Assembly (NCBI RefSeq): GCF_003428875.1
Contig: NZ_QQRS01000004.1
Location: forward strand, 310,001-374,000
Length of the DNA: 64,000 bases
DNA from: Planomicrobium okeanokoites
GTDB taxonomy: Bacteria > Bacillota > Bacilli > Bacillales_A > Planococcaceae
Direction: 5' to 3'
Positions within the stretch are counted from its first letter, which is position 1. Every line of letters starts with the position of its first letter. The notes under the pieces are model-generated. The model saw only the letters and a list, made by a program, of their open reading frames with translations. It did no database searches and was not told the origin of the DNA. A program made the translations under genes and the position numbers. This document shows, in pieces, positions 42,102 through 52,355 of the stretch.

Positions 42102-42491
42102 TTACTTCCGTTGGTCGATGAATGAGCCTTCGGTAGATTTTGTCTGGTACGCACCGACATATTTTTTTGATGCCTGGCTTGTCTGGTTCAGCCGGTTCAT
42201 CTGGGTTGTGAATGATTGATGCAGTTTATTCAATAGAGGCTGCATTTCATCTTCGTAACCTTTCAGCTGGCTGATGACTTTTTTATCTTCCGAGGTCCAT
42301 TCGAATTCAACGGCTTTTGTATATTCACTTAGCTGATCGATGACTGCCTGGCGTCTTTCAAACAACGCCTGCATTGATTCGATTTGCCCAGCTTCATTAT
42401 TATCCATTTTTGTATGGACCGTTTTTGCCTGTGCATTCAATTTTTCTGTAAGCTCGAGAAATTCAGCCAGTCTAAGTTGATACGCGTCCAT
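42102..42491 (-). CDS. fliT: FliT-like flagellar chaperone
   Basis: 129-aa helical protein beginning MDAYQLRLAEFLELTEKL. The ATG shares one base with the fliD stop (TAATG), so the start at 42491 is preferred to 42524 inside fliD. By position (fliD-fliT-fliS) it is the FliT-type chaperone for FliD; sequence similarity in this family is weak. Confidence 0.82.
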   Translation of the reverse strand: MDAYQLRLAEFLELTEKLNAQAKTVHTKMDNNEAGQIESMQALFERRQAVIDQLSEYTKAVEFEWTSEDKKVISQLKGYEDEMQPLLNKLHQSFTTQMNRLNQTSQASKKYVGAYQTKSTEGSFIDQRK

Positions 42492-43963
42492 TACATGCCA
42501 CCGAACATATTTTGCTGCATCCACATGCTTTGACTATTCATCTGGTTCATCGCTTTTTCCATTGCAGTAAATTGTTTCCAGTAACGGCCTTCAATACGAC
42601 TCAATTTATCTTGCCAATTGCTGATATCGCTTTCCATCCTTTTTATACTCTTAGACAAAGTACTGTTATCGATAAAGCTTCCAGGATTCCCGGCTCTTGT
42701 ACTCAAGGATTTAACAGCATCATTCAATCCTTGATAAACCCGTTCAGCAATGCCCAGGTCTCCCGTTTTCTTGGTGAATAAGTTCATCACTTCATCTGGT
42801 TTATCCGCTAAAGCTTTTTGGAGTTTGGCATCATCAATGAAAAGCTTGCCGCCGTTTGTATAGGACCCCGTTGTAATTCCAATTTCTGAAAGAGTGCTTA
42901 TATTTCCAAGAAGCCCCAAGTCATCAACTGCCCCAGTTAAATTTCTTCTTAATTCTTGTAAGGCAGTTTGAAGTGTTGGGTCATTTCTCAATAAGCCGCT
43001 GCGCGACTTTTCTTCCCAAAGCTCAATTTCGTTTTCAGTCATTGCTTTTTTCTGGTCATCTGTTAGCGGCTGGAAATCGGGATAACGTTTTTCTATTAGT
43101 TTCGCCTCAATATCAGCAATTGTTTTGTTATAATTCTCCACAAAACTTTTAATCGATTCCAATGGTTTTGCAGTATCTGAATTCACAGTGATTGTAGACG
43201 TTCCCACTTGATTCAGGTTTAAGGTTAAACCGTTAACAGTGGTCTGGTTTGATTTCAAACCGGTAATTGGAATGCCGTCGAAGTTGACGGAGCCATCTTG
43301 TCCGTTGGTCGTCATCGCTGTTGTTGTTCCACCGTTATTCACGATCTTGTCTGCAAGGGCTGCATCACTGAATGACATCGAAAAGTTTTGATCGACGCCC
43401 ATTCCTTTAGACGCTATAAAGAATCTTGACGTTGTATTGTCAAAACTTGCACGAAGTGCCGGAACTGACGCAGTCGTTGAATCTTGGATCGCTTTGGCTA
43501 CATCCGAGAAAGTCATTGTTGCTGTTACGTCAACCGTCGCTGTTGCACCGCCAGAGCCCGTCACAGTGATGGTTCCAGCTGTGCCAATTTGGTCTCCTGA
43601 TTGTGCTTTAACTCCAGGACTGTTTTCAATTCCAGCTGAAGAATTCACTTTTGCAGCACTAGCAATGCTTACAACTTCCGCAGTGTATGTCCCTGTCATA
43701 GCACTCGCTGTTGTAGAAACACCTAAACTTGCTGCATTCGATGAAGTTGCACTGTATGCGTTGAATGCGGAAGAAAATCTAAGGCTGCTTGTGCTCGTAC
43801 GCAAGTTTGACAATGATAAGTTGAACTCACGGTATGATTCCTGTTGCCATTCCGTCCACATTTTTTTCTGTGTCAACCTGTCTAATGGCATCTTTTCAGC
43901 AGCCATTAAATCTTTCACTATTTGATCTATATCCATTCCAGTTGCCAATCCACTAATCCGCAA
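42491..43963 (-). CDS. fliD: Filament cap protein FliD (HAP2)
   Basis: 490-aa FliD: N-terminal ISGLATGMDIDQIVKDLMAAEKMPLDRL, hook-associated insert region, and C-terminal coiled coil (SLSTRAGNPGSFIDNSTLSKSIKRMESDISNWQDKLSRIEGRYWKQF). It caps the filament and helps flagellin fold. Middle domains are Thr/Ser/Gly-rich as in Bacillus homologues. Confidence 0.95.
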   Translation of the reverse strand: MRISGLATGMDIDQIVKDLMAAEKMPLDRLTQKKMWTEWQQESYREFNLSLSNLRTSTSSLRFSSAFNAYSATSSNAASLGVSTTASAMTGTYTAEVVSIASAAKVNSSAGIENSPGVKAQSGDQIGTAGTITVTGSGGATATVDVTATMTFSDVAKAIQDSTTASVPALRASFDNTTSRFFIASKGMGVDQNFSMSFSDAALADKIVNNGGTTTAMTTNGQDGSVNFDGIPITGLKSNQTTVNGLTLNLNQVGTSTITVNSDTAKPLESIKSFVENYNKTIADIEAKLIEKRYPDFQPLTDDQKKAMTENEIELWEEKSRSGLLRNDPTLQTALQELRRNLTGAVDDLGLLGNISTLSEIGITTGSYTNGGKLFIDDAKLQKALADKPDEVMNLFTKKTGDLGIAERVYQGLNDAVKSLSTRAGNPGSFIDNSTLSKSIKRMESDISNWQDKLSRIEGRYWKQFTAMEKAMNQMNSQSMWMQQNMFGGM

Positions 43964-43992
43964 TCTCCTTCACTCCATCCATGACTTTTCTT

Positions 43993-44337
43993 TTAAAATT
44001 TTTCGTCCACAATTATTCCCATCAATTCCGCCATCGAAGCATATATATCCAGAAACTTCTTATTAGGAATCTCTTTAAGCACTTCATCTGTATTCGAGTC
44101 GATAATTTGAACATAATATTCATTTAATTTTTCATGCAGTTGAAATTTCACAGCGGTCTTTGTTGGTTCGAGAAATTCGTTTATTCCTTCCACCTTACTC
44201 TTAACCATCTCTTTCGTTATCTCTTCCTTTTCAATCGGCCATTCTGATTTAAACTTATGTTCCGCTTTGCTGACGTCCATCTTGGGACTCTCAATTTTAT
44301 TAGGAAATGTGATAACCGGCGTATTTTTAACTTCCAT
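43993..44337 (-). CDS. flaG: FlaG family protein
   Basis: 114 aa. The C-terminal half has the FlaG signature (LNEYYVQIIDSNTDEVLKEIPNKKFLDIYASMAELMGIIVDE); the N-terminal half is charged and variable. FlaG affects filament length in some bacteria. First gene of the fliD operon, with a sigma-D promoter upstream. Confidence 0.92.
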   Translation of the reverse strand: MEVKNTPVITFPNKIESPKMDVSKAEHKFKSEWPIEKEEITKEMVKSKVEGINEFLEPTKTAVKFQLHEKLNEYYVQIIDSNTDEVLKEIPNKKFLDIYASMAELMGIIVDEKF

Positions 44338-44396
44338 TGCTGTCTATCCCCTTGTCTTTTCGATATCAAGAACATAAATGCTTTTGCTATTCTTAT

Positions 44397-44423
44397 ATAT
44401 CGGCACAAAAAGAGATATTTTTA
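44397..44423 (-). promoter_or_regulatory. Sigma-D promoter of the flaG-fliD-fliT-fliS operon
   Basis: On the minus strand TAAA (44423-44420), 15-base spacer, GCCGATAT (44404-44397): exact sigma-28 consensus, about 60 bases before flaG. Confidence 0.95.
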
Positions 44424-44484
44424 GTATTTATTATAATTTTATTCTGCAAAAATAATTTATACCTTTTAAGATATGTGAAAATGT

Positions 44485-44520
44485 AAAAAAAAATAAAACC
44501 GATGGATAAGTATCGGTTTT
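44485..44520 (-). terminator. Intrinsic terminator after the glucosaminidase gene
   Basis: AAAACCGAT (44495-44503) pairs with ATCGGTTTT (44512-44520); the minus strand continues as a long T run. Confidence 0.9.
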
Positions 44521-44522
44521 AT

Positions 44523-45284
44523 CTACGTTAATTTATTCAATTGACGATTTACACCTGTTACCCAATGATTATTGAGGCCTGTCGGGTCATTACCTGCACC
44601 AACTGGAGCGTATTTTGCGCCGATTGCGGCAATCGTAGTTTTACCTTGGTTCAAATAGTTCTGGCGCAGATTGCGGGCCATATCGAAAATACTTTCTTCG
44701 ACAGAGTCATAACTGCGGAGACCGTTCTTGCCCATCATCCCAGCGATATTATTTTTTTCATTCGCAGCTCGTGATGTTCCATTGCCTGTTTCGTGGATTG
44801 CGATAGCCGACAGAAGATTGGGATCAAGATCATATTTTTTACCGGCATTGATGAAGTGAGCAGAAGTGCCGCTCAATTTGCCGCCTAACGTATTTTCAAG
44901 TTTGAGGAATTGAATCGGCTTGAAGTTTAAATCTGTTTTTAAATTCGGCACTGCAGGCTGTGCAACAGTTTCAGCAGCTACAGGAGTCGACGAAGCTGGC
45001 AAAGAAACGGAAATCGGCTTATAGGTATTATTCAATTGAGCCATCATCTGGCCATTGTCTGAATTAGCAGTGGGGTTCAACGCCGCCAGCATGGACGGAT
45101 CCATTTCGCCTCCTTGCATCATGGAGCTTAATAGACTCATGAACATTGAGGTGTTGTTACTGGAGCCGTTCAGCGGATTAGCGGAATTTCCTGTCTGGTT
45201 CGCTGCCGATGAAGCCTGGACCAATGAAGCCATTGTTGTATAGTAGAACCAATTTGATGAAATCGGACTCGTCACGAGGGTCAC
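44523..45284 (-). CDS. Glucosaminidase-like peptidoglycan hydrolase, flagellum-linked
   Basis: 253 aa. Residues about 1-125 are low complexity (Ser/Asn/Ala/Met-rich) with no signal peptide; residues about 128-253 form a FlgJ/LytG-like glucosaminidase domain with the catalytic Glu165 in AIHETGNGTS, GKKYDLDPNLLSA before it and YAPVGAGNDPTGLNNHWV after it. Its place between flaG and a flagellin gene and the lack of a Sec signal suggest export through the flagellar apparatus, like FlgJ of enterobacteria (inference). It starts at GTG 45284 with AAAGG close upstream. Confidence 0.85.
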   Translation of the reverse strand: MTLVTSPISSNWFYYTTMASLVQASSAANQTGNSANPLNGSSNNTSMFMSLLSSMMQGGEMDPSMLAALNPTANSDNGQMMAQLNNTYKPISVSLPASSTPVAAETVAQPAVPNLKTDLNFKPIQFLKLENTLGGKLSGTSAHFINAGKKYDLDPNLLSAIAIHETGNGTSRAANEKNNIAGMMGKNGLRSYDSVEESIFDMARNLRQNYLNQGKTTIAAIGAKYAPVGAGNDPTGLNNHWVTGVNRQLNKLT

Positions 45285-45365
45285 ACACCTTTTGTCAGTA
45301 TAATCATGAATTTATCATACAGGAGAATGAACGAAAAAAGAATAGGATAATTGTGACAATAAAAA

Positions 45366-45407
45366 ACAAAAAGGAAGAAACTACCGGAATCGATAGTATC
45401 CTTCCTT
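45366..45407 (-). terminator. Intrinsic terminator after the VWA flagellin gene
   Basis: AAGGAAG (minus strand 45407-45401) pairs with CTTCCTT (45377-45371), with an inner ACTA/TAGT pairing, then TTTTTG. Confidence 0.85.
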
Positions 45408-45441
45408 GTACTTCATGAATTTTCTCCAACAAAACATTCTA

Positions 45442-46893
45442 CTATTTCAAGAGTTCCAAAACCTGTTGCGACTTACGGTTTGCCTGGGCCAGCATCGCTT
45501 GTGTGCTCTCTGCAAGAATAGAATTTTTCGTTAAATTTATAATTTCCTTAGCCATATCCGTATCTCTGATTCTTGACTCAGCTGCTGTCAGATTCAGCGC
45601 TGATGTGCTGGCGTTATTATATAAATACCTCAATGCATTTTCATAGGCGCCGAATTTTCCGCGCTCTGCCGAAACCTGCTGAATAGCAGCATCCAATTTT
45701 TCAATTGATTTCATCGCTTCTTCCCATGGATCCACTTTCATATTTTCAATTCCCAGCGCAGCTGTTCGGACATCTGATAGATTTATGCCAAAGGTTTCAC
45801 CGGCGTTAGCCCCTATTTGCAATTTCAAGTCAATATTTTCTTTTGGCAGGAATTCCCCGGCTATATCCGCAGCCAAAGATTGCAACTGCGTTGAAAAGTT
45901 TCCTTTTATGTCTAAGTAATTTCCTCCCGTGGGCTCGGAAAGCCGCTGCAATTGTTCCTTAGTATTTCTATCGGTTGGTCCCACTATAGTGAGTTTAATT
46001 CCTTGTCCACTCATGCTCAAAGCCAGATCATCAATGTCATAGACGGATAGTCCATCTCCTCCATCCCTATCATCGGCGGTGTTATTATCATGGACAGGAG
46101 CATCTGTGACGAGAATGAATTGTTTAGTAGCATCCGCCCTAAATGGATAACGTAATGCTTCTTTGATTCCTTCTAAACCCGACTCTGGAATGTCTCCACC
46201 TCCGCCAACCTCTATACTTGTAAGACTACCTTTAAATTCTTCAACATCTCCGGTAAAAGGATTTATCATTATTTGATCACCATTATTAGTCTCTCCATAC
46301 GACACTAAGCCTAGTCTTATATTTACACCTTCAGTTTGTAAAGCAGTTGCAAAATCCTTAATATTAGCTTCTACTCTATTAATGTCTGCACCCATACTGC
46401 CGGTTCTATCGACAATAAAAATAATATCCGATTGGTTACTTGTGATTTCAGGTGTATTGACGGTATCTGTTCCAGGAATATTCAACAAGTTAATGCCATT
46501 AAATTCAGTATTGTCAGCAATGTTATCAATATTTCTCAAAATCTGATTTACTTCGTTCTGGATGGCGGCTTTATCACTCGAGCTTAACGTATCACTTGCA
46601 GCTTGAACTGATAACTGTCTTAATCGATGCAAATTTGGATCAGCAATTTTAGCCAACCCACTTTCTGCCGTTTGAATAAAAGAAATTCCATCCTGGATGT
46701 TCCGTTGCGCCTGTTCTAAGCCTCTTATTTGTGTCCGCATCTTTTCAGAAATGGATAATCCTGCAGCTTCATCCGCTCCCAGATTAATGCGTAGTCCGGT
46801 TGCTAACTTTTCCATGCTTTTTGCTGTCAACTTATTATTTTCTGTCAGATTATTATTTAATTTCATCGCCGACAAATTATGTTGGATGTTCAA
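45442..46893 (-). CDS. Flagellin with inserted von Willebrand factor A domain
   Basis: 483 aa. Residues 1-147 are a normal flagellin D0/D1 N-terminus (MNIQHNLSAMKLNNNL; LRINLGADEAAGLSISEKM; ADNTEFNGINLLN). Residues about 366-483 are the C-terminal D1/D0 (ESRIRDTDMAKEIINLTKNSILAESTQAMLAQANRKSQQVLELL). Between them residues about 155-350 form a VWA domain: strand DIIFIVD, MIDAS residues Asp162, Thr164 and Ser166 (DRTGSM), Asp234 in GGGGDIPES and Asp264 in ILVTDAPV. All MIDAS positions are present, so metal-dependent ligand binding is plausible. The start is TTG with GGAGGA upstream; an out-of-frame ATG lies closer to that site. A TATAAT at 46984-46979 has no good -35 and no sigma-D box is seen, so expression may be low or specially controlled. 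Confidence 0.95.
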   Translation of the reverse strand: MNIQHNLSAMKLNNNLTENNKLTAKSMEKLATGLRINLGADEAAGLSISEKMRTQIRGLEQAQRNIQDGISFIQTAESGLAKIADPNLHRLRQLSVQAASDTLSSSDKAAIQNEVNQILRNIDNIADNTEFNGINLLNIPGTDTVNTPEITSNQSDIIFIVDRTGSMGADINRVEANIKDFATALQTEGVNIRLGLVSYGETNNGDQIMINPFTGDVEEFKGSLTSIEVGGGGDIPESGLEGIKEALRYPFRADATKQFILVTDAPVHDNNTADDRDGGDGLSVYDIDDLALSMSGQGIKLTIVGPTDRNTKEQLQRLSEPTGGNYLDIKGNFSTQLQSLAADIAGEFLPKENIDLKLQIGANAGETFGINLSDVRTAALGIENMKVDPWEEAMKSIEKLDAAIQQVSAERGKFGAYENALRYLYNNASTSALNLTAAESRIRDTDMAKEIINLTKNSILAESTQAMLAQANRKSQQVLELLK

Positions 46894-47029
46894 AGTACAT
46901 TCCTCCGAAATGGTTCTATATAAACTATTTTAAGAAATTAAGTAATGTTATCTTTCAAGACGTAATTTCACCTTTTATATTATACCTTTATTTACATAAA
47001 AAGGAAGAGCAATTAAAAATAATATTAAA

Positions 47030-47059
47030 GAAAAAAAGATCGGGAAAATTTCCCGATCT
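47030..47059 (-). terminator. Intrinsic terminator after the giant repeat protein gene
   Basis: AGATCGGGA pairs with TCCCGATCT (47059-47037 region), followed on the minus strand by T7. Confidence 0.92.
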
Positions 47060-47067
47060 CCAAAATA

Positions 47068-50000
47068 CTATTTCTTATTTGAACTCTTAGTTTCCACTGT
47101 CGCATGGCCAATTACCAAGTAACCGCCCACCATTCCCCGGAACTCCAACAGTTGCTCGCCATCGATCCACTCGAAGTTCGCCCGCTCAAACCGGAAATGT
47201 CCTTTTTGGGCCTGTTGCTCAAATCCTTTTTTCCCATTGATGGCTGAAACTCCATTGATTGTGGCAGTTTCCAATACAAAATCTTTTGTTGAGAACTGAG
47301 ATGGTAGTGAAACTTCTACTGAGAAAACACCCGAGTTTCCTTTAATGACGCCCGGTTTTACTTTAAAGCTGTCTGCTGGAATATAAACTGCAATTGAATG
47401 CTTCAACACAGTAGCCCAACCTGCATGATCCGTCACTGTCAACTCCAGTCGATATGTTCCAGGCTGATCGAAGGAAACTTCCTCGCCTTTAGCAAATTCT
47501 TTTCCGTTTACAGTTAATTTTTCTTCTGCGATTCCGGATACAGTATCTTCTGCAAAATAATCCAGCGTCAAGACCGAATCTAAAGCATATTCTTCTTCAA
47601 ACTCCCATTTCGCCGCCGGAGCTGTCTTATCGATTTTCACTTCTTCTGTTTTTACCTGTTCTTCATTACCGGAAATATCCGTACTGTAGAATTTCACTTC
47701 GGTAATTCCTTCAGAAGTTATGTTTAATTTTTCTCCTGCAGTGAATTCCTCATTTTCAATTGAATAATAGGTGCTATCGAGACCACTCAAGCCTTCAATA
47801 ACGGTGAAGTTAACACCAAAATCCTCTTTCAGCCATTGTCCACTAATATTAGAAGTCGTTTCTGGCGCCGTCAGGTCAATCTTCACATCGACCGTTTTCA
47901 CTTCTTCCTTATTTCCTGCATGGTCAACGCTATAAAATGATACCTCATTGATGCCTTCTTCAAGAATATTCGTGGTTGCGCCTTCCTCAAATTCAGAGCC
48001 ATTTACCGAATAAAAAGTTTTAGCCACTCCGCTGAAATCATCAACTGCTGTCAATTCAATTGTAAACTCCTGATGCCATTGATCGTCGGCATTCGAAGTC
48101 GTTTCTGGAGCTGTCGTGTCAATATTGACTTCGACAGACTTCGCTTCTTCTACGTTACCCACTTTATCGACACTATAGAACGAAACAGTATTAACGCCTG
48201 CTTCCGCAAGAATAACTTCTGTTCCTTCTGTGTATTCAGAACCGTTTATGGAATAGAAAGTTTTTTCAACGCCGCTCTTATCGTCAGTAGCAGTTAATTC
48301 GACAAGAGCCTCTTGCTGCCAGCCCTCCGGAACAACCGCCTCTGTCACTGGCGCAGTTTTGTCAATTTTCACTTCTGCAGTCTGAACTTCTTCAACACCG
48401 CCTGCTTTATTGACACTGTAGAACGACAAAACGTTGATTCCTTCTTGGTCAATTACAAAGTTTGTGCCTTCTGCATATTCATCGTCGTTAACAGCATAGA
48501 AAGTCTGAGCCACTTTGCTCTTATCATCTGTTGCTGTCAGCTCAACAGCAAATTCCTGATGCCATTCGCCGTCCGCATTCGAAACCGTTTCCGGAGCTGA
48601 ACGATCTATTTTCACTTCGGCAGTTTTTACTTCCTCAACATTTCCTGCTTTATCAACACTATAGAAAGAAATTGTATGGATTCCATCTTCATCGACAATA
48701 AAACTCGTTCCTTCAAGGAATTCTGAGCCATTTACCGAGTAATAGCTGGTTTCTACTCCGCTTTTTTCATCAACAGCCGTCAATTCTACTGCATATTCCT
48801 GATGCCATTGGTCGTCTGTATTAGAAACCGTTTCCGGAGCGGTCCGATCAATTTTTACTTCTTCCGTTTTCATTTCCTCAGTATTTCCAGCAACGTCTGT
48901 GCTGTAGTACGCAATAGTACGGATTCCTTCTTCATTGAAAGTATAGCTGTCACCCTGCTGGAATTCAGAACCATTTACCGAGTAAAAAGTTTCTTTTACT
49001 CCGCTTTCTTCGTCCTCAGCTTTCAGCTGCACCGTAAATTCCTGATGCCATTGCCCATTTAGATTCGAACTCGTTTCTGGCGCAACCTTATCAATTTTCA
49101 CTTGAGCAGTTTGTACTTCTTCAATGTTGCCAGCTTTATCAACGCTGTAGAATGAAATATTTTGAATGCCTGCTTTTTCAACCGCAAAGCCCATGCCTTC
49201 AACAAAATCCGTTCCATTCAAAGAATAGTAAGTGGTGTCTACCCCACTCTTATCATCTTCAGCCGTCAATTCCACATTAAAATATTGGTTCATCCAAGCA
49301 TCAATCGCGTTGGATGTCGTGACTGGCGGAGTCACATCATTTTGCGCCTGCACCATCACTGCATTCGAATAATCCGAATCACCGAAGCGGCTATGCGTAA
49401 CAGTCACTACGTATTCATGAGTCCCGTCTTCAATATCACTTATTGTGTAGCTGATTTTATCTGTCGACCCCACTAAAACATAATCGCCATCAATCACTTC
49501 AAAAACGTGATAAGCGTATGCATTTGAAATCTCGTTCCATCTCAAAACAGCTGCCGCTTCATCAAAAGAAGCCAGCTTAAGTTCAGGGCTTTGAACTGTC
49601 GGATGTCCAAGAGTCAATTTAACATTTGCTGGAGCCGATTCCCCGAAACGAGTGCTCACCGCTGTCACTTCATATTCATACCAGTCTTCAGGCATGTCTG
49701 TGAACACTCGGTTCAGACGGTCTGTTGACATGATAAATTCTTTCTCACCATCGTTGATCCGGTAAATATTATAACTTGTGGCAAATTCGACTTCTGTCCA
49801 TTTCAATAATAAATCATTGCCGTTTTGAACTGTCAGCGTCAAACTTGTTGGTGCCTGCATCTCCGGATGCTCGAGTGTCTGAACTGCTTGGCTTGCAGCT
49901 TGGGATTCACCAAACCGATCGCTGAAAGAATGAACTTCATACACATAATCGCCCGCTGGCATATTCGGGAACAAACGGTTCAGGCGATCTGTAGTCAGAA

Positions 50001-51285
50001 CCAGTTTCTTTGTGCCATTGATGACCTGATAGACTTTATAGCCTGTGGCAAATTCCACTTCTGACCATCTCAGGAATAAGTCACTGCCATTCATGACAGT
50101 AATCGAAGAACTAAGAGGTGCAGCCATTTGCGGATGAATTAATGTATGGATTACTTGGACTGCATTTTTCGATTCACCGAATCGGTCGCTTACTGAATGT
50201 ACTTCATAAGTATATTCCCCTGCTGGCATATTCGGGAACAAGCGGTTCAAGCGATCTGTAGTTAAAACCAATTTCTTTACACCATTTTTTATTTGATAAA
50301 TTTTATAAGCAGTAGCAAATTCTACTTCTGGCCATCTCAGAAGTAAATCATTCCCATTCGTGATAGTCGCTGTCAAACTTGAAGGAGGGGCCATTTCCGG
50401 ATGGACAAGTGTATGAGAAATGGTGCTGGACAATAAGGATTCACCAAAACGGCTGCTCACCGAATGCACTTCATACACGTATCCCCCCGCCGGCAGGTTT
50501 GCAAAGTTCCAATTTAATCTGTCTGTGTTTTTAACCAAATCTTTTACACCATTTTTGACTTGATAAATGTTATAGGAAGTAGCAAATTCTGCTGTATCCC
50601 ACTTTAACAAAATATCATTTCCATTTCGGACAGATAAGTCTAATCCTTGTGGGGGTGTAATTTCAGGATGTGTTAACGAATAAGAAACCCGGCTCGAAGA
50701 TGAAGACTCACCAAACCGATCGCTCACTGAATGCACTTCATATACATAATCCCCTGCAGGCATATTAGAGAAATTCCAGTTTAGACGATCAGTCGTCTTG
50801 ACCAATTCTTTTCCAGCACTTGTTACTTGATAAATATTATAGCCAGTAGCAAATTCCACTTCTGTCCATTTAAGAAAAAGATCATTTCCGTTACGTATAG
50901 ATACACTTAAATCCTGAGGAGCGGCCATTTCAGGGTGAACTAAACTTAATTTCACAAGTTCTGAAGATGGTGACTCTCCTTCAGCGGCATTATATGACGT
51001 TACTTCAAAAGCATATTCACCTTCTGCTTGGTTAACCAAATTTAGATAAGGGTATTTCGGTGAACTGATCATTTTTCTTTCACCATTACTTATCTGATAA
51101 ACATTATAATGTTGCACATTAGTTACAGCTGTCCATCTGACTTGGATATTATTCCCATTGTTCAAAAGAATCTTTACATCATTCGGCGCCTCCAATGGAG
51201 CAGCAAATACACTGACTGTCGGCAAAATGAATTGCAGCACCAAAAGAATGCTTAAAACCAATGACATTTGACTGTATTTTTTCAT
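47068..51285 (-). CDS. Giant secreted repeat protein (7 FN3-like + 8 OmpL47-like repeats)
   Basis: 1405 aa. A signal peptide (about 1-28, ending VSVFAAP) indicates Sec export. Residues about 30-650 contain seven FN3-like repeats of about 89 residues, each with a ...NGNDLLLKWTEVEFATSYNIYQ... core, TTDRLN and YVYEVHSVSDRFGES. Residues about 650-1300 contain eight repeats of about 81 residues of the OmpL47-like type (PETVSNADGEWHQEF; FYSVNGSEF; ISFYSVDKAGNVEEVKT), the eighth divergent. The last 105 residues are a separate beta-rich domain. No LPXTG, SLH or membrane anchor is seen. The start at 51285 has AAAAGGAG upstream. It lies between the two flagellin genes in the same direction, suggesting a surface or flagellum-associated adhesin (inference). 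Confidence 0.9.
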   Translation of the reverse strand: MKKYSQMSLVLSILLVLQFILPTVSVFAAPLEAPNDVKILLNNGNNIQVRWTAVTNVQHYNVYQISNGERKMISSPKYPYLNLVNQAEGEYAFEVTSYNAAEGESPSSELVKLSLVHPEMAAPQDLSVSIRNGNDLFLKWTEVEFATGYNIYQVTSAGKELVKTTDRLNWNFSNMPAGDYVYEVHSVSDRFGESSSSSRVSYSLTHPEITPPQGLDLSVRNGNDILLKWDTAEFATSYNIYQVKNGVKDLVKNTDRLNWNFANLPAGGYVYEVHSVSSRFGESLLSSTISHTLVHPEMAPPSSLTATITNGNDLLLRWPEVEFATAYKIYQIKNGVKKLVLTTDRLNRLFPNMPAGEYTYEVHSVSDRFGESKNAVQVIHTLIHPQMAAPLSSSITVMNGSDLFLRWSEVEFATGYKVYQVINGTKKLVLTTDRLNRLFPNMPAGDYVYEVHSFSDRFGESQAASQAVQTLEHPEMQAPTSLTLTVQNGNDLLLKWTEVEFATSYNIYRINDGEKEFIMSTDRLNRVFTDMPEDWYEYEVTAVSTRFGESAPANVKLTLGHPTVQSPELKLASFDEAAAVLRWNEISNAYAYHVFEVIDGDYVLVGSTDKISYTISDIEDGTHEYVVTVTHSRFGDSDYSNAVMVQAQNDVTPPVTTSNAIDAWMNQYFNVELTAEDDKSGVDTTYYSLNGTDFVEGMGFAVEKAGIQNISFYSVDKAGNIEEVQTAQVKIDKVAPETSSNLNGQWHQEFTVQLKAEDEESGVKETFYSVNGSEFQQGDSYTFNEEGIRTIAYYSTDVAGNTEEMKTEEVKIDRTAPETVSNTDDQWHQEYAVELTAVDEKSGVETSYYSVNGSEFLEGTSFIVDEDGIHTISFYSVDKAGNVEEVKTAEVKIDRSAPETVSNADGEWHQEFAVELTATDDKSKVAQTFYAVNDDEYAEGTNFVIDQEGINVLSFYSVNKAGGVEEVQTAEVKIDKTAPVTEAVVPEGWQQEALVELTATDDKSGVEKTFYSINGSEYTEGTEVILAEAGVNTVSFYSVDKVGNVEEAKSVEVNIDTTAPETTSNADDQWHQEFTIELTAVDDFSGVAKTFYSVNGSEFEEGATTNILEEGINEVSFYSVDHAGNKEEVKTVDVKIDLTAPETTSNISGQWLKEDFGVNFTVIEGLSGLDSTYYSIENEEFTAGEKLNITSEGITEVKFYSTDISGNEEQVKTEEVKIDKTAPAAKWEFEEEYALDSVLTLDYFAEDTVSGIAEEKLTVNGKEFAKGEEVSFDQPGTYRLELTVTDHAGWATVLKHSIAVYIPADSFKVKPGVIKGNSGVFSVEVSLPSQFSTKDFVLETATINGVSAINGKKGFEQQAQKGHFRFERANFEWIDGEQLLEFRGMVGGYLVIGHATVETKSSNKK

Positions 51286-51348
51286 TTTAAAAACACTCCT
51301 TTTTACCCACTCGATAGACAATAAAAAAAGCCCTCTAAGCTTATGATA

Positions 51349-51377
51349 ATTTTATAGTGAAAAAAGAGGCTCTCAAT
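51349..51377 (-). promoter_or_regulatory. Probable sigma-A promoter of the giant repeat protein, overlapping the hag terminator
   Basis: On the minus strand TTGAGA (51377-51372), 17-base spacer, TAAAAT (51354-51349). The -35 box lies inside the right arm of the hag terminator hairpin. The leader also contains AAGCTTAGAGGGCTTTTTTT (51344-51325), a weak possible attenuator. Confidence 0.55.
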
Positions 51378-51390
51378 AAGAGAGCCTCTG
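51360..51390 (-). terminator. Intrinsic terminator after hag
   Basis: AGAGGCTCTC pairs with GAGAGCCTCT (51366-51375 with 51381-51390), loop of five, then a T7 run on the minus strand. Confidence 0.95.
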
Positions 51391-51411
51391 ACTTCTTAGC
51401 TTCATCTACTA

Positions 51412-52251
51412 TTAACGTAGTAATTGAAGTACTGCTTGTGGTGCCTGGTTTGCTTGAGACAACATTGCTTGAGAAGCTTGAGTCAAGATGTTGTTCTTAG
51501 TCAAGTTCATCATCTCTTTAGCCATGTCAACGTCACGGATGCGTGATTCTGCAGCCTGTGTGTTTTCGGCAGAAGCGTTCAAGTTGTTGATTGTGTAGTC
51601 AAGACGGTTTTGAACAGCACCTGTGTAAGCACGGGAATCAGATACTGATTGAATTGCAGCATCAATTGCAGTTAAAGAACTAGCTGCGTTTGCCGCTGTA
51701 TCAACACCGACCATACCAGTTGCCAACGTAGTTAATGTAGTAGCCAAATCAGCTTTGCTCAAATCCAATGTAAGTGTTTCACCTGAGTTGGCACCGCTTT
51801 GGATCGTCATTACTCCGTCTGCTGCTGAACCAGCAGAAGCATTAAGTAATTTTTGTCCGTTGAATTGAGTGTTAGTAGAAATATCTGTTAACGTTGAAGT
51901 CAATTCAGTAAGCTCACCTTGAATTGCCGTTCTTTCATCGTCACTGTTTGTATCGTTTGCTGCTTGTACAGTCAATTCACGCATACGCTGAAGAATAGCG
52001 TGTGATTCGTTCAATGCACCGTCAGCAGTTTGGATAACAGAAACTGCATCCTGAGAGTTTTTAGAAGCTTGCTCAAGACCACGAATCTGTCCGCGCATTT
52101 TTTCAGAGATCGAAAGACCAGCTGCATCATCTGCACCACGGTTGATGCGCATTCCTGAAGAAAGTTTTTCCATTGAGTTTGAAGCGTTGCCACTTACCTG
52201 GCCCATTTGGCGGTGAGTGTTAAGAGCTGCGATATTGTTGTTAATAATCAT
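51412..52251 (-). CDS. hag: Major flagellin Hag
   Basis: 279-aa flagellin with complete D0/D1 ends (IINNNIAALNTHRQMG; MRINRGADDAAGLSISEKMRGQIRGLEQ; AAESRIRDVDMAKEMMNLTKNNILTQASQAMLSQANQ) and only a short variable middle, typical of Bacillus Hag. It has an ATG start, GGAGGT ribosome binding site, a sigma-D promoter and CsrA-type sites in the leader, so it is the main filament protein under FliW-CsrA control. Confidence 0.97.
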   Translation of the reverse strand: MIINNNIAALNTHRQMGQVSGNASNSMEKLSSGMRINRGADDAAGLSISEKMRGQIRGLEQASKNSQDAVSVIQTADGALNESHAILQRMRELTVQAANDTNSDDERTAIQGELTELTSTLTDISTNTQFNGQKLLNASAGSAADGVMTIQSGANSGETLTLDLSKADLATTLTTLATGMVGVDTAANAASSLTAIDAAIQSVSDSRAYTGAVQNRLDYTINNLNASAENTQAAESRIRDVDMAKEMMNLTKNNILTQASQAMLSQANQAPQAVLQLLR

Positions 52252-52328: not shown

Positions 52329-52355
52329 TTATCGGAGGGCGCCAGAAAATGTTTA
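52329..52355 (-). promoter_or_regulatory. Sigma-D promoter of hag
   Basis: On the minus strand TAAA (52355-52352), 15-base spacer, TCCGATAA (52336-52329). One or two mismatches to GCCGATAT. It gives a leader of about 70 bases containing the CsrA sites. Confidence 0.88.

Follow-up and report, generated by a model that had tools for sequence, protein, structure and literature searches.

The 64,000-nucleotide stretch of DNA analysed here (the window), from Planomicrobium okeanokoites, encodes a flagellin that carries a VWA domain (VWA-flagellin; Table 1). The gene lies within a flagellar segment running from hag to flaG-fliD, where a glucosaminidase gene and the gene of an fn3/Ig repeat protein flank it, and it is read on the minus strand, a point absent from the original prediction. 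Helical Flagellin_N (E 2.2e-39; 135.1 bits against a cut-off of 26.6) and Flagellin_C (E 1.1e-19; 70.9 bits against 23) regions identify the protein as a flagellin. The part between them belongs to the VWA family by sequence (E 2.3e-12; VWA_4, E 7.3e-13) as well as by its Rossmann-like fold in a structural model and in Foldseek comparisons. A chance match is ruled out because all Pfam domains of the protein exceed their curated cut-offs. The original prediction had proposed good flagellin ends, a complete VWA domain in the variable region, and a gene separate from the ordinary hag, and all three are borne out. Matches to the protein within its own genome numbered five and correspond to three genes, namely itself, hag, and FlgL. 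The closest relative found is in Planococcus koreensis and is 62-64% identical (L020; also L007 of G012). Six other VWA matches in the own genome were considered as sources of the domain; the two that were scored against the flagellar VWA profile (L130 and L132) reached 25.5 and 8.8 bits and are not close. By eye, the fn3/Ig repeat protein encoded between hag and the VWA-flagellin looks secreted.

Table 1. Position of the VWA-flagellin gene, its parts, and neighboring features in the window
Feature	Coordinates	Strand	Basis or remark
VWA-flagellin gene, 483 aa, TTG start	45442..46893	minus	
GGAGGA, likely ribosome-binding site, 7 nt ahead of the TTG start	46901..46906	minus	sequence
Flagellin_N (D0/D1 N half), residues 3-138	46480..46887	minus	Pfam
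VWA domain, residues 156-339	45877..46428	minus	Pfam, model, Foldseek
DxTxS motif, D162/T164/S166 (residues 162-166)	46396..46410	minus	alignment including integrin beta-3
D234-I-P-E237 loop	46183..46194	minus	alignment; E237 likely third MIDAS ligand
D264, last MIDAS aspartate	46102..46104	minus	alignment including integrin beta-3
Flagellin_C (D1/D0 C half), residues 397-482	45448..45705	minus	Pfam
Terminator-like hairpin between VWA-flagellin and 5' neighbor	47035..47061	minus	consensus scan only
fn3/Ig-like repeat protein, 1417 aa	47068..51321	minus	matches fn3, Big_13, OmpL47-type
Ordinary flagellin hag	51412..52251	minus	Pfam; sigma-D-like motif at 52330-52355

Profile A2, which covers the VWA domain and its surroundings, detected at least 15 VWA-flagellin genes in at least 13 genomes. 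At the family level there were at least 13 genes in at least 11 of 261 genomes, and samples of the class and of the phylum (398 genomes each) added at least one gene each (G388 and G668, respectively). These counts are lower bounds, as 8 candidates per genome (family) or 5 (class and phylum) were scored, and candidates were confirmed by reading of the open reading frame, by Pfam, or by profile. Two of 46 Planococcus genomes carry a VWA-flagellin and 36 have a match to Hag. Four of the 15 genes are interrupted: those of G130 and G164 by a stop within the N-terminal part, that of G144 by a single in-frame stop in the VWA part, and that of G388 by a shift of frame, again within the N-terminal part. 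The G083 copy has an ambiguous start. The rarity of the gene in Planococcus together with these interruptions indicates that the VWA-flagellin is dispensable. The A2 profile also picked up flagellins of G040 and G022, which show no Pfam VWA and were removed from the counts; in the G040 protein (L093 8786-10090) the C-terminal flagellin domain stops early and covers 54 of 86 profile positions. A search of a plasmid collection returned four records with at least 80% query coverage, and the one that was read (H1, Acetoanaerobium) encodes a flagellin with a different middle part.

The 14 readable VWA-flagellins fall into three classes: A (n=6, including the window protein), B (n=3), and C (n=5). 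The fifteenth (L088, the G144 copy with the in-frame stop) was excluded from alignments A1-A7 and from the trees. Identity to the window VWA is 19-26% for the VWAs of class B and class C flagellins (eight in all). In a tree of VWA domains, class B, which takes in two FlgK domains, and class C are fully supported; class A is weaker and is sometimes split over more than one branch.

What fold does the inserted region adopt? The VWA fold that the original prediction expected from structure prediction was obtained for residues 140-365, whose model, based on 10 sequences, consists of alternating strands and helices (pLDDT 81.9, pTM 0.81). A whole-protein model based on 3 sequences had a mean pLDDT of 48.8 and left D0/D1 without confidence. 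When the residue 140-365 model was compared with solved structures by Foldseek, 410 chains matched at E <= 0.001. Integrin chains made up 48 of the best 50 of these, the top matches being integrin beta I domains (best E 9.8e-10, query TM-score 0.65); the pilus adhesin SpaC stood at rank 25 among the solved matches listed. A library of predicted viral proteins gave 75 matches at E <= 0.001, many of them named VWFA. The integrin beta I domain resembles the window domain in fold and in its DxSxS, DxPE, and TDAxxH loops, which align with those of the VWA-flagellin. It differs in overall sequence (15-19% identity among the matches listed) and in its second Asp pair, the ADMIDAS, which is not conserved in class A VWAs.

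Alignment of integrin beta-3 with a profile of the six class A domains points to a MIDAS metal site. D162/T164/S166 align with integrin beta-3 D119/S121/S123, the D234-x-P-E237 loop aligns with D217-A-P-E220, and D264 aligns with the Asp of TDAKTH; in other words, a DxSxS/T motif, a third ligand, and a final Asp are all present in the predicted site. In integrin beta-3 the MIDAS ligands are D119, S121, S123, E220, and D251. The original prediction had listed D162, T164, S166, D234, and D264 as the MIDAS residues. The alignment confirms all of these except D234, which corresponds to D217. E237, the counterpart of E220, is present in six of six class A flagellins (D234 in five) and in every row of a 10-row alignment that includes phage relatives. 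Because of this conservation and its alignment with E220, E237 rather than D234 is most likely the third ligand. Beyond class A the position of the third ligand depends on the alignment, with E at 237 in none of three class B and one of five class C domains in one alignment but in all seven rows of another, smaller one. The remainder of the site is more widely kept. All 16 flagellar VWAs (14 from flagellins and two from FlgK) have D162 and carry S or T at position 166, while position 264 is D in 13 and N in three (L095 and both FlgK domains). Among the 14 readable flagellins alone, every one has DxSxS/T and 13 have the last Asp.

It appears that whole VWA domains have probably been exchanged between flagellin cores. 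The evidence for this comes from a conflict between the tree of VWA domains and that of the cores (VWA excluded). In the core tree, forcing each class together was rejected (AU p 5e-10 for A, 0.0095 for B, and 5e-9 for C). Conversely, in the VWA tree, forcing each of two core clades together was rejected (p 4e-64 and 6e-5). Genomes G202 and G256 both have two copies with related cores, one of class A and the other of class C. These trees call for caution because of long branches (L090, L091, and L095) and short cores, those of L083, L084, L087, and L092 being without part of the N-terminus. The core tree took 40 hag-type flagellins as references, 37 of them from Planococcus, and its VWA-flagellin side is of limited bearing on flagellins in general.

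VWA domains also occur in FlgK, the flagellar hook-junction protein. Two such proteins were found in two different families, in one of 43 and one of five genomes, respectively: L054 (G438; 397-2562; FlgK_D1 189.4 bits, VWA 50 bits) and L079 (G929; 154-2559; FlgK_D1 225.7 bits, VWA_4 28.9 bits, barely over its cut-off of 27). In the tree both of their VWAs belong to the fully supported class B, and a VWA clade made of flagellins only was rejected (AU p 0.0002); AU tests of a single origin for all flagellar VWAs gave p 0.24 and 0.064. None of the papers found on FlgK and von Willebrand, judged mainly by their titles, treats such a fusion. An Azospirillum paper in which 'minor flagellin' and 'VWA' appear together deals with distinct proteins. 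Relatives of the class A domain are encoded on ten viral contigs. In the best of these (L137, 736-4227, and L138, 571-4230), whose VWAs are 42% and 41% identical to that of the window, a virion structural family of PHROG is matched by another part of the protein. On the tree, the distance between the VWA of L139 and that of L052, which comes from a bacterial genome (G444), is zero. A search of 50,697 phage records with the window VWA returned two weak matches.

The surroundings of the gene were compared with five relatives (G010, G021, G026, G029, and G039; stretches L102, L110, L112, L114, and L121), in which no fn3/Ig protein and no VWA-flagellin was found. Several flagellar neighbors are well conserved: FliS is 87-96%, FliT 79-94%, and glucosaminidase 83-94% identical to the window in all five, and FliW (96-98%) and MotA (87-98%) are so in the four whose stretch covers both. 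FlaG (59-70%), FliD (53-66%), and Hag (52-61% in four; absent from the G026 contig) are diverged. The divergence of hag, flaG, and fliD amid conserved neighbors suggests a piecewise exchange of filament-surface genes, and window positions 42491-52251 are therefore likely a recombination hotspot of such genes. In G022 the same slot (L129 8298-9888) holds a flagellin in two frames with a related core, its ends being 69% and 59% identical to the window core and 59% and 45% to hag; its middle is unrelated and gave no match, in Pfam included. In two relatives the interval from hag to the glucosaminidase gene contains transposase genes (L096 6170-7348 and L110 6001-7473).

The original prediction envisaged a filament studded with thousands of adhesion sites. 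Expression signals do not support this number. An exact sigma-D motif precedes hag, flaG, and a gene located at 39.3 kb, but none was found upstream of the VWA-flagellin, whose best loose match to the consensus (9 of 12 positions) was equalled or exceeded in 132 of 400 random stretches. Relative to hag, codon use of the VWA-flagellin scores 0.41, within the range of 14 other measured genes (0.35-0.52), against 0.78 for hag itself, a value inflated because hag is its own reference. Ordinary codon use, the TTG start, and a sigma-D match at chance level thus argue against thousands of sites. Together with the terminator-like hairpin between the gene and its upstream neighbor, they point to a minor subunit that is controlled differently.

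The fusion was already on record: a screen of 26,587 flagellins by Eckhard et al. in 2017 counted 21 with 'vWFA', the eighth entry of its list (PMC5595980 Table 1). Those proteins have a VWA inside the hypervariable region, as does the window protein, and in the main text of that paper they occupy one table row without analysis. A functional or structural study of a VWA flagellin was not found in the open-access literature, which was the part searched. The architecture is known and its kind, as far as searched, uncharacterized. The parallel that the original prediction drew with flagellinolysins holds, as these too carry a foreign functional domain at the same position of a flagellin, and the enzyme-bearing flagellin FliA(H) is reported to enter filaments (PMC5595980). 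The VWA-flagellin is not itself a flagellinolysin: its score for the metallopeptidase family NF033876 is 71.2 bits, where the cut-off is 205, and it has no HExxH.

The closest tested analogue is PilB of Streptococcus sanguinis, in which a VWA with a MIDAS is likewise grafted onto a minor filament subunit. PilB differs in belonging to the type IV pilins, with a probable location at the tip of the pilus, and in having its VWA on a short loop rather than between flagellin halves (PMC8179133). Without metal binding by PilB, piliation is reported to continue but twitching motility to cease; adhesion to cells, too, depends to an important degree on metal binding, but fibronectin and fibrinogen are bound in vitro without need of metal (PMC8179133). 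A VWA protein with links to flagellar genes and to movement on surfaces is also known in CmoA of Paenibacillus, which unlike the VWA-flagellin is a separate secreted protein with a signal sequence and eight IPT/TIG domains (PMC5072692). It is thought to be encoded in a flagellar operon (PMC5072692). In the VWA-flagellin no IPT/TIG repeats were found, flagellin and VWA being the only Pfam families at E <= 0.001. Two proteins from the same bacterial family (L017 and L018) combine a VWA with repeats that, judged by eye, resemble those of CmoA.

How might the VWA-flagellin act? We lean towards a model in which the protein serves as a minor, secondary flagellin, joining Hag in the filament and displaying a metal-dependent adhesion domain there. 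By this model, in which we infer filament incorporation, metal binding, adhesion, and a ligand, the integrin-beta-like VWA would face outward and bind Mg or Mn at D162/T164/S166/E237/D264. Through the bound ion, the domain would grip an acidic side chain on a surface, matrix, or neighbor-cell protein, so that some sites of the filament become adhesive. The VWA would be a swappable module, as cores retain a VWA at the D2/D3 position and switch its class. The complete flagellin ends and VWA, the integrin-like fold of the model, the conservation of most of the metal site, the tree conflict, and the precedents of the minor pilin PilB and of FliA(H) favor this co-assembly and adhesion model. It is weakened by the rarity and the interrupted copies of the gene, by N in place of D264 in three of the 16 domains, by the alignment-dependent third ligand outside class A, by the metal-independent binding of fibronectin and fibrinogen by PilB, and by the lack of confident D0/D1 in the full-length model. 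A broader form is more tentative: the VWA may be a travelling adhesion cassette of flagellin, FlgK, and phage virion proteins, whose exchange between cores would re-target the flagellum as an integrin-like, metal-dependent adhesive array.

It is also conceivable, if unlikely, that the VWA acts between filaments, dimerizing or binding a secreted partner (the fn3/Ig protein or one like CmoA) and so bundling flagella for surface movement. CmoA is required for motility of Paenibacillus on hard agar (PMC5072692), and dimerization of an outer flagellin domain modulates motility (PMC8931119). The fn3/Ig protein, a possible partner, is found in just three of 46 Planococcus genomes and lies upstream of the VWA-flagellin in both Planococcus carriers, in G012 as a C-terminal piece at a contig end. 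However, the third genome (G024) has it without a VWA-flagellin, the hairpin parts the two genes in the window, and only one of the 14 other VWA-flagellin loci (L082, of the P. koreensis type) has an fn3/Ig-like reading frame in the stretch fetched.

We give still less weight to the notion that the outer domain is swapped to evade flagellum-binding phages or predators, with the MIDAS as inherited baggage. The mosaic hag-fliD segment of near relatives, the G022 flagellin with its unrelated middle on a related core, and the class A-like VWAs of phage virion proteins would fit such surface variation. Yet the VWA fold and DxSxS/T are kept in all 14 readable flagellins despite changes of class, and escape alone needs neither. 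That the gene is an additional flagellin in decay or without expression, and currently functionless, seems the least probable of all: its rarity, the interrupted copies, the TTG start, and ordinary codon use are in keeping with this, but in the window and in P. koreensis the reading frame is uninterrupted from end to end, and the two copies, 64% identical, have kept their motifs.

The evidence for domain exchange, the predicted integrin-beta-like metal loop, and the FlgK insertions lift the case above a routine one. VWA flagellins have been a table row since 2017. Evidence that the metal site has mostly been kept during a probable exchange from core to core, and that the domain also occurs in FlgK, makes it possible to test the filament as an integrin-like adhesive fiber. 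If it is one, flagella would join the type IV pili and the sortase pili, which are known to present VWA adhesins.
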